DNA of 30,796 nucleotides from IMG/VR virus record IMGVR_UViG_3300035034_000396, positions 1 through 30,796 of that record; one strand, written 5' to 3'. Positions 2,828-30,501 of the stretch are shown here, piece by piece. A model generated the notes under the pieces. It was not told the DNA's origin. It ran no database searches and saw nothing but the letters and a program-made list of their open reading frames with translations. Every line of letters begins with the position of its first letter. Position 1 is the stretch's first letter. A program made the translations under genes and the position numbers. This DNA is from a virus.

Positions 2828-3468
2828 AAGCATTTATAAACACACCAATAACAAAAAAGCAGTTTATTAAAAACATCAAGTGGCATATGGAACAAGATGC
2901 GATCATTAAAGTAACCTACGGCAAGGGATTAGGAAGTAACTTTAAAGGGTGCGCGGTCGGTTGCTCCTTAAGCTCTATTCGGATGCATCTCGGGGTCGAC
3001 ATTCAGCTGAGTGACCACTCTTTATATGAAAAATATCTAGGCGCTCCAAAGTGGCTTGCAAAGCTTGAAGACTTTTTATTTGAGAGGTTACCAAGTGACA
3101 GACCGTGGACACTAGAATTTTCTAAGGCGATTAACGTTGGTGCTGATTTAGATAAAATAAAAGTCCCGTTTATTGTTTATATAATGGAAGAAAACCTTAA
3201 AGCGCTCGACCCGTTGAGGGGTTATCAAGACGAGCAGTGGTTAATAGATTGCAAGAACGCAGTCTATTATATGATCTTTGCCCAAGAGAGCGGTGATAGT
3301 GAGCTTATCGATGATGCAAGGTCAGCAGTAGAGTCAGCAGTAGAGTCAGCAGTAATGTCAGTAGAAGGGTCAGCAACACGGTCAGTAAGATGGTCAGTAG
3401 AATGGCCAGAAACATGGTCAGCAATATGGTCAGTAGGGCGGTCAGCAGTTACCTTGAGAATATACTAA
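2824..3468 (+). CDS. repeat-tailed phage protein, C-terminally truncated by frameshift
   Basis: As it stands, 214 residues. The N-terminal domain (about 1-165) resembles a family I know from phage genomes: a start like ITKKQFIKNIKWHMEQD, a GCAVGCSL motif, a PKWLAKLEDFLFE segment, and then a tail of four-residue repeats (S-A/V-x-x). Its function is unknown. Here the tail is read from 12-bp DNA repeats beginning at 3322. After eleven units a 31-nt insertion shifts the frame and the protein ends in TLRIY. The ancestral end (KYADILLDMMKLCK) survives in another frame at 3485-3568. Deleting the 31 nt would give a 237-residue protein. ATG 2824 is chosen because AAGGAGAAGAA precedes it. Whether the truncated form works is unknown. 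Confidence 0.65.
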   Translation: MKAFINTPITKKQFIKNIKWHMEQDAIIKVTYGKGLGSNFKGCAVGCSLSSIRMHLGVDIQLSDHSLYEKYLGAPKWLAKLEDFLFERLPSDRPWTLEFSKAINVGADLDKIKVPFIVYIMEENLKALDPLRGYQDEQWLIDCKNAVYYMIFAQESGDSELIDDARSAVESAVESAVMSVEGSATRSVRWSVEWPETWSAIWSVGRSAVTLRIY

Positions 3469-3520
3469 ACAACATCAAGGATGGTCAGTAATATGGTCAG
3501 TAGAAAGGTCAGTAACATTT
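3322..3520 (+). repeat. 12-bp degenerate tandem array, coding
   Basis: Fourteen units of about 12 bp with consensus TCAGYARNANGG start at 3322, 3334, 3346, 3358, 3370, 3382, 3394, 3406, 3418, 3430, 3442, 3485, 3497 and 3509. The first two are identical and the rest differ at a few sites. In frame they encode S-A/V-x-x repeats. The eleventh unit is interrupted: TCAGCAGT, then 31 nt of foreign sequence, then ATGG. Because the unit is a multiple of three, gain or loss of units would keep the frame; the 31-nt insertion does not. Confidence 0.9.
3449..3485 (+). repeat. 37-bp direct repeat, copy A (inside the coding array)
   Basis: Perfect 37-base match to 3653-3689. It begins TTACCTTGAG and ends CATCAAGGATGGT. 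The copy contains a 6-bp dyad, CCTTGA...TCAAGG, separated by 17 bases. This copy sits inside the 12-bp array and causes the frameshift of the repeat-tailed gene. Microhomology (ATGGT) at its right edge is shared with many array units, so it looks like the inserted copy. Confidence 0.95.
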
Positions 3521-3636: not shown

Positions 3637-3665
3637 TTGATATTGCGTTCATTTACCTTGAGAAT
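3637..3665 (+). promoter_or_regulatory. possible sigma70-type promoter before the phosphoesterase gene
   Basis: TTGATA at 3637-3642, a 17-base spacer and GAGAAT at 3660-3665, just before the gene at 3693. The -10 element is weak and overlaps the direct repeat. The rest of the 3569-3692 gap is purine-rich and holds only two tiny reading frames of about ten codons. Confidence 0.25.
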
Positions 3666-3689
3666 ATACTAAACAACATCAAGGATGGT
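3653..3689 (+). repeat. 37-bp direct repeat, copy B (5' region of the phosphoesterase gene)
   Basis: Second copy of the 37-base repeat, 204 bases downstream of copy A. Here it provides AAGGA (3681-3685) as ribosome binding site for the TTG start at 3693, so this copy is the functional and probably original one. It includes the CCTTGA...TCAAGG dyad, which could form a weak hairpin or a protein binding site in the leader. Confidence 0.95.
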
Positions 3690-3692
3690 AGT

Positions 3693-4835: not shown

Positions 4836-6098
4836 ATGGAGCTTAGGGCCAACGAAACAAAGATAAAATGTGAGTACGGAAAACTAGAAGACATACATAA
4901 ATTAATACCAAATCCAAAAAACCCAAACAAACACCCCGATGAACAAATTAAAAGACTGTCTGAGATAATTGATTATCAAGGCATGAGAAGTCCTATCGTT
5001 GTTTCTAAGAGATCCGGATTCATTACGAAGGGACATGGCAGACTTGAAGCTTTAAAGCTTTTGGGTTGGGATAAGGCACCCGTTGACTACCAAGACTATG
5101 ACGATGAAGCTCAAGAGTACGCTGACATCGTAGCAGACAATGCAATTGCAGAATGGTCGATTCAAGACTTATCAGAAATAAATGCTGAGATACTTGATCT
5201 AGGTCCTGACTTTGACATTGATCTATTGGGTCTTAAAGACTTTGTTATTGAACCCGTTGAGAAATACGACGAGGAAACAGAAGATAATGTACCAGAGCTT
5301 AAAGGTGACCCGATTACTAAGAAGGGTGACGTTTGGCTATTGGGTGATCACAGAGTTATGTGCGGTGATTCGACTGTGATTGATGATGTCGAGAAGTTAA
5401 TGAATGGCGAGAAGGCTGACCTGTTGCATACCGACCCACCTTATAATGTAAACTATTCAAACGCTGACCGACCAAAGGCAGGAAAGACCGACTTTGGTCA
5501 CATAAAAAACGACAAGATGGACGATGCGTCTTTTTATCAGTTTTTATATGATTCGTTTGTTTGCGGATTTCACTCTTGTGGCGAAAACTCCATGGCATAC
5601 GTTTGGTGCGCAGCCTTGGAGCATATTAACTTTACTCAAGCACTAATTGATTCTGGATGGGGATACAACCAGCAGATCATATGGAAAAAGCCCATGCTGT
5701 TAGGTCGTGGAAAATATCAGTGGGCGCATGAACCATGTCTGACGGCAGTTAAAGGAAAACCATTCTTTACGGGCGACAGGACAAAAACAACCCTATGGGA
5801 CTTTGGTGGCTATGATAAGTCTAAAAATGTACACCCGACACAGAAGCCAGTGGTGATTCCAGAGGAGGCCGTAAATAACAGCTCAGAAGTTGGGGGCGTT
5901 GTCCTTGATCTATTCCTTGGATCAGGATCGACATTAATAGCTTGCGAGAAAACAAACCGAAAATGCTACGGCATGGAACTGGATGAACATTACTGTGATG
6001 TAATCGTTAATAGATATATAAAATATACTGGTGATAAAAATGTGACACTTGAAAGCACAGGAGAGAGATATGTCGACCTCGAAAAATCTAGAGTGTAG
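4836..6098 (+). CDS. ParB-domain DNA methyltransferase (N4/N6 type)
   Basis: 420 residues in two parts. Residues about 14-135 are a ParB/sulfiredoxin-like N-terminal domain with ITKGHGRLEALKLLG (63-77). Residues about 165-397 are an amino-methyltransferase of the DNA methylase N-4/N-6 family: TDPPYN (199-204) is the catalytic motif and LDLFLGSGST (357-366) the S-adenosylmethionine-binding motif, so the order is that of beta-class enzymes. It should methylate adenine N6 or cytosine N4, probably to protect phage DNA from host restriction. No restriction endonuclease partner is seen except the HNH gene that follows. The C-terminal tail (398-420) resembles the tail of that HNH protein, as if the end of the gene had been duplicated. 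Confidence 0.9.
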   Translation: MELRANETKIKCEYGKLEDIHKLIPNPKNPNKHPDEQIKRLSEIIDYQGMRSPIVVSKRSGFITKGHGRLEALKLLGWDKAPVDYQDYDDEAQEYADIVADNAIAEWSIQDLSEINAEILDLGPDFDIDLLGLKDFVIEPVEKYDEETEDNVPELKGDPITKKGDVWLLGDHRVMCGDSTVIDDVEKLMNGEKADLLHTDPPYNVNYSNADRPKAGKTDFGHIKNDKMDDASFYQFLYDSFVCGFHSCGENSMAYVWCAALEHINFTQALIDSGWGYNQQIIWKKPMLLGRGKYQWAHEPCLTAVKGKPFFTGDRTKTTLWDFGGYDKSKNVHPTQKPVVIPEEAVNNSSEVGGVVLDLFLGSGSTLIACEKTNRKCYGMELDEHYCDVIVNRYIKYTGDKNVTLESTGERYVDLEKSRV

Positions 6099-6633
6099 CT
6101 ATTGTGCGAATATATTTAACTCTAAATCAAGAAACAGTAAGCAAAAATATTGTTCTAAGCCTTGCGCTAGAAAAGGTAGCCCAAATAAAAACGTTTTTAA
6201 AAAGGGCGATGGGTCGTGGAACAAAGGTTTGAATATTTCTGGAATGAGTGGAAAGAAAATGACTCAAGAACATAAACATAAAATAGGTGAGGCTAATTCT
6301 GGTGAAAAGTCTTATTTATGGAAGGGCGGCATTACAAGTGAAAACTATAGAGCAAGAAGGTCTGCAAAATATAACGACTGGAGAAAATTTGTATTTGAAA
6401 GAGATAACTACACATGTCAAGATTGTGGGTCAAAATCAATAAAGGGAAACAGGGTGATGCTTAACGCACACCATATAAAACCTTTTTCAGAATACACAGA
6501 GCTAAGGACTGAAGTCGATAATGGTCAAACATTGTGTGAAGAATGTCACAGAAAAGTCCATAGCTTTAACACTGGAAAGAAGGCAACGCTTGAATCTAAC
6601 GGCCAAACATACGAGGAGCTTATAAATGGGTAG
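6070..6633 (+). CDS. HNH endonuclease with NUMOD-like motif
   Basis: 187 residues. N-terminal Cys cluster (C9, C12, C28, C32) forms a likely zinc finger; residues 51-86 (NKGLNISGMSGKKM to LWKGG) resemble the NUMOD3 DNA-binding motif of homing endonucleases; residues 108-164 are an HNH nuclease core (CQDC, AHHIKP with H134/H135, N151, CEEC, H164). The last 20 residues (TGKKATLESNGQTYEELING) look like a methyltransferase C-terminus, not like HNH proteins. ATG 6070 is chosen for AGGAG seven bases upstream; it lies inside the end of the methyltransferase gene. The stop overlaps the terminase small subunit gene. It could be a mobile nuclease inserted at the methyltransferase end, or an HNH partner of the terminase as seen in other phages. 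Confidence 0.85.
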   Translation: MSTSKNLECSYCANIFNSKSRNSKQKYCSKPCARKGSPNKNVFKKGDGSWNKGLNISGMSGKKMTQEHKHKIGEANSGEKSYLWKGGITSENYRARRSAKYNDWRKFVFERDNYTCQDCGSKSIKGNRVMLNAHHIKPFSEYTELRTEVDNGQTLCEECHRKVHSFNTGKKATLESNGQTYEELING

Positions 6634-6970
6634 ACCTAAAAAAGAACTAAGTGTGGATGAGTTTGAAAAGCTATGCGCATTACAATGTACACAAGAGGAA
6701 ATATGTGGATGGTTTGATGTTCATGATGAAACATTGACGCGATGGATAAAAGAAACATATGGCGAAGAGTCAAGTTTTTCGGAGATTTTCAGACTAAAAA
6801 AGGGAAAGGGTAAAATATCGCTAAGAAGAAATATGTGGAAGCAAGCCGAAAAGAGTGCAGCGGTCGCTATATTTCTAGCAAAGAACCACCTTGGAATGAA
6901 AGATAAACAAGAGATAGATCATAGGGCCGACAATATAAGCATTAACTACAGTTTAGTTCAAGATGACTAA
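6626..6970 (+). CDS. terS: terminase small subunit
   Basis: 114 residues. An N-terminal helix-turn-helix (about 10-45: DEFEKLCALQCTQEEICGWF then DETLTRWIKETYGE) with charged helices after it fits small terminase subunits, which recognise phage DNA and regulate the packaging motor. The gene overlaps the HNH gene by eight bases and shares one base with the large subunit (TAATG at 6968-6972), the usual arrangement. The start MGRPKKELS is typical of the family. Confidence 0.8.
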   Translation: MGRPKKELSVDEFEKLCALQCTQEEICGWFDVHDETLTRWIKETYGEESSFSEIFRLKKGKGKISLRRNMWKQAEKSAAVAIFLAKNHLGMKDKQEIDHRADNISINYSLVQDD

Positions 6971-8184
6971 TGGAAGTAAGGCTCCTATCTCATCAACGTG
7001 AAGCCCTCTTTTCAAATCATAAAGCAACAGCATTAGTCTCAGGTATTGGCGGTGGTAAAACGTGGACTGGAGTTCATTGGGTCATTAAAATGTCTCAGGA
7101 ATACCCCAAGTCACTAGGCTTCATCGGTGCCAACACATTCTCTCAACTAAGAAACTCAACACTGTCTGCGGTCTTTAATGAGCTAATGAATCTCAACATT
7201 CCCTTTAGCTATAATCAATCATCTGGAATATTAACTGTTTTGGGAAAGAGGTGGCTTTGTAAGTCAATGGACAACTACGACCCTTTAAGAGGTATTGAGG
7301 TGGGAGAGATTTGGTTAGATGAGTGTGCCTATATGAAGGAAGAGGCTTATAACGTTATCATGGGTCGATTAAGAGATAAATTTGGTGCGCTAAAGGTCTT
7401 TTTGACGACAACCCCAAAGGGATTTAATTGGCTATACCAGAAGTTTCACGAAAACGGAGACGACAAGACAGATGAGAATTTTCTTATTCACGCCGTATCA
7501 AGCGAAAATCTTTTCTTACCAGATGGTTACCTAGATACTATTCGAGGTCAATACGATGAAAAGCTACTAGCACAAGAGCTAGGCGGAGAGTTTATTAATG
7601 TTACTAGTGGCTCTATTTACTACGCCTTTAGTAGGGTGGCTCACGTTAAAGACATAGAGATCAATGAAAGGTTTCCACTTTGGGCGGGGGTAGACTTTAA
7701 CGTAAACCCAATGACCGCAACAATAGGACAGGTAATCAATGACATTTTGTATGTAGTGGATGAGTTTTATCTTAAAAACTCCAATACAGAGGCCTTATGT
7801 AAAAACATTATTTCAAAATATGGTGATGGTGTAACAATCGTACCTGACTCAACTGGTAAGAAGATGACCACAAATGCAAACGTTTCAGATCTTCAAATAT
7901 TACAAAGGTATTTTAAAAATGTAAGAGTGGCCGGAAACCCCTTTAGGGTGGATAGATATGCAGCAGTCAACGGAGCATTCTCAAATGGCAAAGTTGTGAT
8001 TTCGCCGCGATGCAAGTACACTATTAAAGATCTAGAGAGTGTCGTCTACAAAAAGGGAACTGATAAGCCCGATACAAGTGACAAGATGCTAACGCACTGT
8101 AGTGATAATCTAGGGTATCTTATTTACAGGACGGTCAATCCGTTATTCAATAGAAACAGCAAAATACAATCATTTAAACGCTAG
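6970..8184 (+). CDS. terL: terminase large subunit
   Basis: 404 residues, the packaging ATPase and nuclease. Walker A is SGIGGGKT (24-31), Walker B with catalytic Glu is IWLDE (114-118), and motif III is TTTP (146-149). The RNase-H-like nuclease domain starts at GVDFNVNP (D242), followed by VPDST (D293) and a final acidic site near HCSDN (D379). The length is normal for the compact terminases of siphoviruses. It binds the portal protein encoded next and translocates DNA into the prohead. Confidence 0.93.
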   Translation: MEVRLLSHQREALFSNHKATALVSGIGGGKTWTGVHWVIKMSQEYPKSLGFIGANTFSQLRNSTLSAVFNELMNLNIPFSYNQSSGILTVLGKRWLCKSMDNYDPLRGIEVGEIWLDECAYMKEEAYNVIMGRLRDKFGALKVFLTTTPKGFNWLYQKFHENGDDKTDENFLIHAVSSENLFLPDGYLDTIRGQYDEKLLAQELGGEFINVTSGSIYYAFSRVAHVKDIEINERFPLWAGVDFNVNPMTATIGQVINDILYVVDEFYLKNSNTEALCKNIISKYGDGVTIVPDSTGKKMTTNANVSDLQILQRYFKNVRVAGNPFRVDRYAAVNGAFSNGKVVISPRCKYTIKDLESVVYKKGTDKPDTSDKMLTHCSDNLGYLIYRTVNPLFNRNSKIQSFKR

Positions 8185-30090: not shown

Positions 30091-30501
30091 TTATGAAGCT
30101 TTTGAAAAAGTCTGCCCAACCTTGTCACCTAGTGGGCTATCATCATCGGTCATAAGTAATCTTATTTGCCGGGCCATACGCCAAGCACATTTATAAGTTA
30201 CACCTAGTTGTCGCTCTAATTCCTTGGCGGCAACTCCATTTTTACTTTGACTCATTAAGAAAATAGCGTGAAACCAAAGTGTTAGCAACGTACTTGATTT
30301 ATGAAATATCGTACCCTCGGTTGGTGATACCTGATAACCGCATTTACAAGCGTATGATTTTCTCCCTTTTACACGGTAAAAATTCTTACTCTCACAATTA
30401 GGGCAAGTTAAGCCTTTGGGCCAGCGGTTTTTGAAAATGAAGTCTAAACACGCATCATCGTTGGGAAAATCAGCTTTTAGGTTTTTGATTGTATATTTCA
30501 T
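30091..30501 (-). CDS. IS1595-like zinc-ribbon/HTH protein lacking the DDE domain
   Basis: 136 residues. Residues 12-66 are the N-terminal zinc-binding domain of IS1595-type transposases: WPKGLTCPNCESKN (C33, C36), then YACKCGYQVSPTEGTIFHKS (C52, C54). Residues 72-115 (LLTLWFHAIFLMSQSKNGVA, LGVTYKCAWRMARQIR) are the helical, helix-turn-helix-like part that follows in those proteins. Full transposases then continue with a DDE nuclease domain; here the frame stops after 20 more residues and no such sequence follows. The start overlaps the stop of the upstream gene (ATGA), so it is translated as part of an operon. It is either a decayed transposase or a DNA-binding protein derived from one. Confidence 0.75.
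   Translation of the reverse strand: MKYTIKNLKADFPNDDACLDFIFKNRWPKGLTCPNCESKNFYRVKGRKSYACKCGYQVSPTEGTIFHKSSTLLTLWFHAIFLMSQSKNGVAAKELERQLGVTYKCAWRMARQIRLLMTDDDSPLGDKVGQTFSKAS

Follow-up and report, generated by a model that had tools for sequence, protein, structure and literature searches.

The viral DNA analysed here (IMG/VR record IMGVR_UViG_3300035034_000396, positions 1 to 30,796; all 30,796 nt are referred to as the window) very probably carries an intron-less homing element at the 3' end of a DNA methyltransferase (MT) gene. As read from sequence comparison, the element would consist of a replacement MT 3' end and an HNH nuclease ORF. The features of the locus are as follows.

4836–6098, + strand: MT gene, ParB-N plus N6/N4 DNA methyltransferase, 420 aa, host gene invaded by the putative element (Pfam PF01555, E 5e-26; phrog_498, E 5e-136)
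5988–6005, + strand: putative insertion site, codons H-Y-C|D-V-I of ELDEHYC|DVI, junction TGT|GAT at 5996/5997, placed in the window by homology only
6012–6098, + strand: present MT tail RYIKYTGDKNVTLESTGERYVDLEKSRV, probably imported with the HNH gene; RY-type and unmatched by the W-type native-tail HMM
6059–6068, + strand: Shine-Dalgarno-like AGGAGAGAGA, presumably for the HNH gene, within the MT tail codons TGER (from the sequence at 6040–6110)
6070–6633, + strand: gene of an HNH endonuclease of 187 aa, with zinc pairs and with NUMOD3 and HNH domains (Pfam)
6571–6633, + strand: native MT tail TGKKATLESNGQTYEELING in displaced position, forming the C-terminus of the HNH protein (HMM; tail scores; DNA alignment to L009, L013 and L016)
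6613–6618, + strand: Shine-Dalgarno-like GAGGAG, presumably for terS, within the displaced-tail codons YEEL (same place in the L009 MT)
6626–6970, + strand: terS (small terminase subunit) gene, its start overlapping the displaced tail (AATGGGTAG) (phrog_309, E 2e-10)
6970–8184, + strand: large terminase subunit (TerL) gene, context (phrog_2, E 1e-42)

The methyltransferase tail at the end of the HNH protein

The HNH ORF starts with an ATG at 6070, overlaps the MT gene by 29 nt and stops at 6631–6633. Its HNH domain scores 42.8 bits against a curated Pfam cut-off of 21.4 (E 6e-11). A NUMOD-like segment had been suspected by the first-pass annotation, and Pfam confirmed it as NUMOD3 (23.6 bits, curated cut-off 20.4, E 5e-5). 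In alignment A1 the HHIK, N and CxxCH motifs are conserved; the catalytic HH and N and the zinc cysteines are intact, with H217, H218, N234, C204, C207, C239 and C242 invariant (numbering of L032, the first row of A1). The ParB-N match (PF02195) in the MT is sub-threshold. No Rfam match to an intron or other RNA family was found in the window. A 44-nt repeat (~95% identical) is present at 3446–3489 and 3650–3692, and a cut-short ORF on the minus strand (30091–30501) looks like a transposase N-terminus (zinc ribbon).

The MT ends TGDKNVTLESTGERYVDLEKSRV and the HNH protein ends TGKKATLESNGQTYEELING; the MT copy of the tail starts at 6027 (TG codons) and the HNH copy at 6571. The two tails share the motif TLES.G..Y..L, and the agreement at nine of eighteen positions noted earlier holds if one gap is allowed (KNVTLESTGERYVDL aligned to KKATLESNGQTYEEL, score 41). 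A tail HMM was built from 42 W-type MT tails (RWQ..TGK..) at HNH-free loci and run on 145 HNH ORFs and 2900 shuffles. The window HNH scored 18.6 bits (E 2e-4) and the best shuffle 12.7, which confirms that the HNH protein ends in an MT C-terminal tail and that the resemblance is beyond chance. The only other HNHs above all shuffles were L032/L169, L321 and L322; two of these three sit behind an MT, and the L321 contig begins too close upstream to show. With an HMM trained on all tail types the match of the window HNH was weak (E 0.08).

The first-pass annotation had called this tail typical of MTs and not of HNH proteins, and had named tail-bearing HNH proteins far from MTs as the finding that would speak against it. 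None were found among the closest HNH relatives. The HNH relatives away from MTs were searched for the MT tail and lack it; the closest of them stop soon after CxxCH or in unrelated residues, and the close relatives L002, L469 and L470 have other endings. A chance or family-typical HNH tail is ruled out by the HMM with its shuffles and by these relatives.

The tail of the window HNH is closer to the MT tails of HNH-free loci L009, L020 and L042 (score 74) than to the tail of the adjoining MT (41), and the best score of the window MT's own tail against any HNH-free MT tail is 57. L009 has no HNH gene, and its MT and TerL are 52% and 63% identical to those of the window. At the end of the L009 MT, which reads TGKKAVLESNNKTYEELKNDNG, the stop codon and the start of terS overlap in AATGGGTAG, precisely as the HNH stop and terS do in the window. 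L009, L013 and L016 are HNH-free empty-site relatives that were aligned at the DNA level to the displaced tail of the window, and the HNH gene is absent from most MT-terS relatives. By the tail scores and the L009 junction, the HNH protein ends in the displaced native end of the MT, and it is the tail now on the window MT that is the odd one. The comparison with HNH-free relatives that the first-pass annotation had asked for thus supports its proposal of an HNH insertion at the 3' end of the MT gene, by which the old tail came to end the HNH protein.

The module and its insertion site in related phages

A dozen other phages show this arrangement as well. Of 116 different MT 3' ends followed by 900 nt or more of sequence, 12 have a second MT tail downstream, in every case with a nuclease ORF separating the two tails. 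Second tails are thus present at 12 of the 14 nuclease-followed MTs (the exceptions are L174 and L325, each with an HNH after the MT) and at none of the ~102 MTs without a nuclease. The Fisher p value of 1e-14 for this association is only illustrative, because HNH queries served in part to gather the loci and some of the group assignments were made by eye once the result had been seen. Ten cases were called automatically by the zinc-HNH pattern; L177 and L366 were assigned by inspection, and the L366 nuclease is HNH-like with no Pfam match. L177 (1951–2619) carries a Vsr/DUF559-type nuclease domain together with the zinc N-terminus, MT tail and insertion site of the HNH elements, which points to a nuclease swap within the element. 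In L170 (847–2297) an HNH is followed by a T5orf172/GIY-YIG ORF fused to a displaced MT tail, and a third MT-tail-like fragment (2184–2297) lies before terS. HNH, Vsr-like and GIY-YIG nucleases are therefore all found at the MT site, and L177 and L170 share the MT tail type and the displaced tails.

The extent of the module is best seen in L171 and L173. Their MT bodies are only 31% identical and their MT tails are identical at 27 of 27 positions; the shared DNA (95.7% over 1018 nt) runs from the MT 3' end to just behind the HNH/displaced tail, and its left edge falls in the codons of ELDEHYC|DVI. Directly after the HNH stop, L171, L172, L173, L176 and L316 carry a stub of the native MT end (e.g., DVIIQRWENFTGKKAVLLNG), and these displaced tails resume at GATGT of D-V-I. 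The point of resumption marks ELDEHYC|DVI as the insertion site, and in these alignments it is shown to be a constant, conserved stretch in the relatives. The alignments likewise show the MT tail and the nuclease travelling together in the relatives. The displaced tail appears as an in-frame fusion to the HNH in the window and as an orphan stub in many relatives.

L032 is a cleaner second case with the same layout as the window. Its HNH ends KARWQTLTGKEAVRQDGIKFNDL; the stretch from RW via the stop and the intergenic region to the beginning of terS can be aligned with HNH-free L058 (123/170 nt). The L032 MT body is 63% identical to that of L058; its tail, RYINLKKSDADVFLLRGGKKIPYKEV, is not L058-like and is 74% identical to the L171/L173 tails, although the MT bodies are only 32–39% identical. 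A tail common to unrelated MT bodies in L171, L173 and L032 argues that it came with the nuclease, and the inserted tail is clearly foreign to the host gene at these loci. By analogy, the present MT tail of the window is probably foreign and imported with the HNH. Tail searches of annotated phages and viral contigs found no element-bearing donor for it. No close relative with the MT tail and HNH pair in a second host was found either; the only close match, L001/L079 (IMGVR_UViG_3300023049_000149), is 99.95% identical to the window over 8.5–11 kb, has the HNH gene and is the same phage in another assembly. A scan of IMG/VR for the HNH plus tail pattern and a scan of genome contigs yielded no new MT-linked HNH.

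The first-pass annotation had taken the tail on the MT for a second copy of the old one, and the divergence of the two at the DNA level as the mark of an old event. The MT does end in a tail of this kind, which is probably foreign and not a duplicate, as related loci carry a foreign MT tail. The age estimate falls: if the elements bring a foreign tail, the divergence measures the distance between donor and recipient and not the age of the event. It is unlikely that the native tail was simply duplicated in tandem on insertion and that the two copies then diverged over a long time. Such an origin would account for the motif TLES.G..Y..L common to both window tails, but it fits neither the closer match of the HNH copy to HNH-free MT tails (74, against at most 57 for the MT copy) nor an MT tail beside the HNH in L171, L173 and L032 that is common to unrelated MT bodies.

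Proposed mechanism and known precedents

We propose that the HNH nuclease would cut an MT gene lacking the element, at the codons of the conserved ELDEHYC|DVI, and that, during co-infection, repair from an element-bearing genome would insert the module. The MT tail of the module would restore an open, full-length, hybrid MT that presumably keeps its function, so that the host gene would not be destroyed and the cut site would be separated or recoded. The native tail would be pushed downstream, and in the window it would still carry the terS start region. An AlphaFold model of the window MT (mean pLDDT 86) places the insertion site inside the last core helix (384–398) and shows an ordered MT tail (pLDDT 90–97); in this model, insertion without a replacement tail would be predicted to truncate or damage the fold. 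An AGGAG (Shine-Dalgarno-like, HNH) lies within the new MT tail and the terS GAGGAG lies within the displaced tail, as in L009. The displaced tail may persist because the Shine-Dalgarno-like stretch of terS is inside it.

Some phage group I introns carry HNH endonucleases (I-HmuI type). As in these introns, a NUMOD3/HNH nuclease of the window interrupts a conserved coding region of a phage gene. The window element differs in that the window has no Rfam match and the host gene appears to be completed by an imported tail, not by splicing.

A closer precedent is known from fungal mitochondria, where mobile ORFs form hybrid genes in Allomyces macrogynus (atp6) and Glomus sp. (atp6, atp9, cox2 and nad3) (PMC3630166). 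In these, a foreign C-terminus is inserted, followed by the nuclease ORF and the displaced native C-terminus, which is more like uninvaded relatives (PMC3630166). Likewise, the nuclease ORF of the window is preceded by an MT tail (the tail ends at 6098 and the HNH gene starts at 6070), a second tail follows the HNH core, and the displaced tail is the one nearer to uninvaded relatives (74 versus at most 57; similarly L032 versus L058). The fungal elements have LAGLIDADG or GIY-YIG nucleases in mitochondria, whereas HNH/NUMOD3, Vsr-like or GIY-YIG nucleases are found here in tailed phages; in the window, unlike in fungi, the nuclease and the displaced tail form one protein, and the ribosome-binding site of the downstream gene appears to lie in that tail. 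Free-standing HNH homing endonuclease genes of phages are known, such as those of the T4 Mob proteins and ICP1 (PMC10448857). Like the window gene, they encode HNH proteins that have DNA-binding modules, and they lie next to essential genes, terminase among them. In contrast to them, the tail of the host gene appears to be replaced here, of which no case was found in the passages of PMC10448857 consulted. No phage report of a tail-replacing element was found in those passages or in a full-text literature search in which subscription journals were thinly covered.

Similar cases in other host genes

For 111 HNH ORFs with an upstream ORF, the upstream C-terminus was compared with the sequence after the HNH core, and about 10 loci scored above the 99th percentile of mismatched controls (38). 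Three of these follow. In L198 (1517–3956) an HNH directly after a gene that is portal-like by appearance only ends in a copy of the C-terminal segment of that gene (TG.ISPVELSI). A glycosyltransferase gene is split in two by an HNH in L337 (1381–4390), and the last residues of its N-terminal part recur at the C-terminus of the HNH (WHR.N...EK.F.TSNG). In L384 (2694–4413) an HNH lies between a small gene, of replication-initiator type by appearance only and matching no Pfam family, and a second copy of its C-terminal 55 residues (score 164).

These loci bear on the idea that the window HNH is a resident packaging gene like HK97 gp74, merely recombined with the MT end and not homing. The gene is directly upstream of terS, and an HK97 HNH protein adjoining terminase acts together with terminase in cos cleavage (PMC10448857). 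Against this, the window HNH has NUMOD3 and zinc motifs, nucleases of three types (HNH, Vsr-like, GIY-YIG) occupy a single site, similar modules are found in portal and glycosyltransferase genes, and the HNH is not a conserved resident, being absent from most MT-terS relatives; we regard this explanation as improbable, a little more so than tandem duplication. That the tail is a native C-terminal domain of the HNH family, like an MT tail by chance or convergence, is scarcely credible, for although the HNH ORF runs on into the tail in frame and without a break, the tail is absent from all but 4 of the 145 HNH ORFs, L002, L469 and L470 end otherwise, and the terS junction is that of the HNH-free L009 MT, so that this reading is already contradicted.

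An intron-less homing element thus remains the preferred explanation for the window. More broadly, we lean somewhat towards the view that phages host a broad class of such elements with replacement 3' ends, in which the nuclease domain (HNH, Vsr-like, GIY-YIG) and the target (MT, portal, glycosyltransferase, replication gene) are interchangeable. Displaced ends would be left behind, phage genes would steadily be made hybrids, and the ends would sometimes be reused as nuclease C-termini that keep the translation of the next gene. This would account for the arrival of free-standing homing genes within conserved coding sequence where there is neither an intron nor an intein: they bring the missing gene end. 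The signature would be a nuclease ORF with, behind it, another copy of the end of the upstream gene that resembles the version in relatives; from it one could read where many uncharacterised phage nucleases have inserted, and hence where they probably cut. For annotators it is a warning that certain unusual C-termini, in nucleases as well as in phage genes, are swapped parts.

A few further loci were noted. MT835481 (H41), with a tblastn match extending to residue 185, was rejected: its HNH end is unrelated and the terminase region is apparently broken up. In BUCT618 (H81) an HNH-like match lies within an ORF annotated as methyltransferase. In L469 (1288–1761; Leeuwenhoekiella phage Arctus_1) the ~65 residues before the HNH resemble the N-terminus of another phage gene, possibly an insertion near a gene start. 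The HNH ORFs of L081 (2169–2780) and L080 (4040–4651) start terS-like (MARPRKELEDIKIS...), and the real terS comes after them; this may be the mirror image of the event, at the 5' end of a gene.
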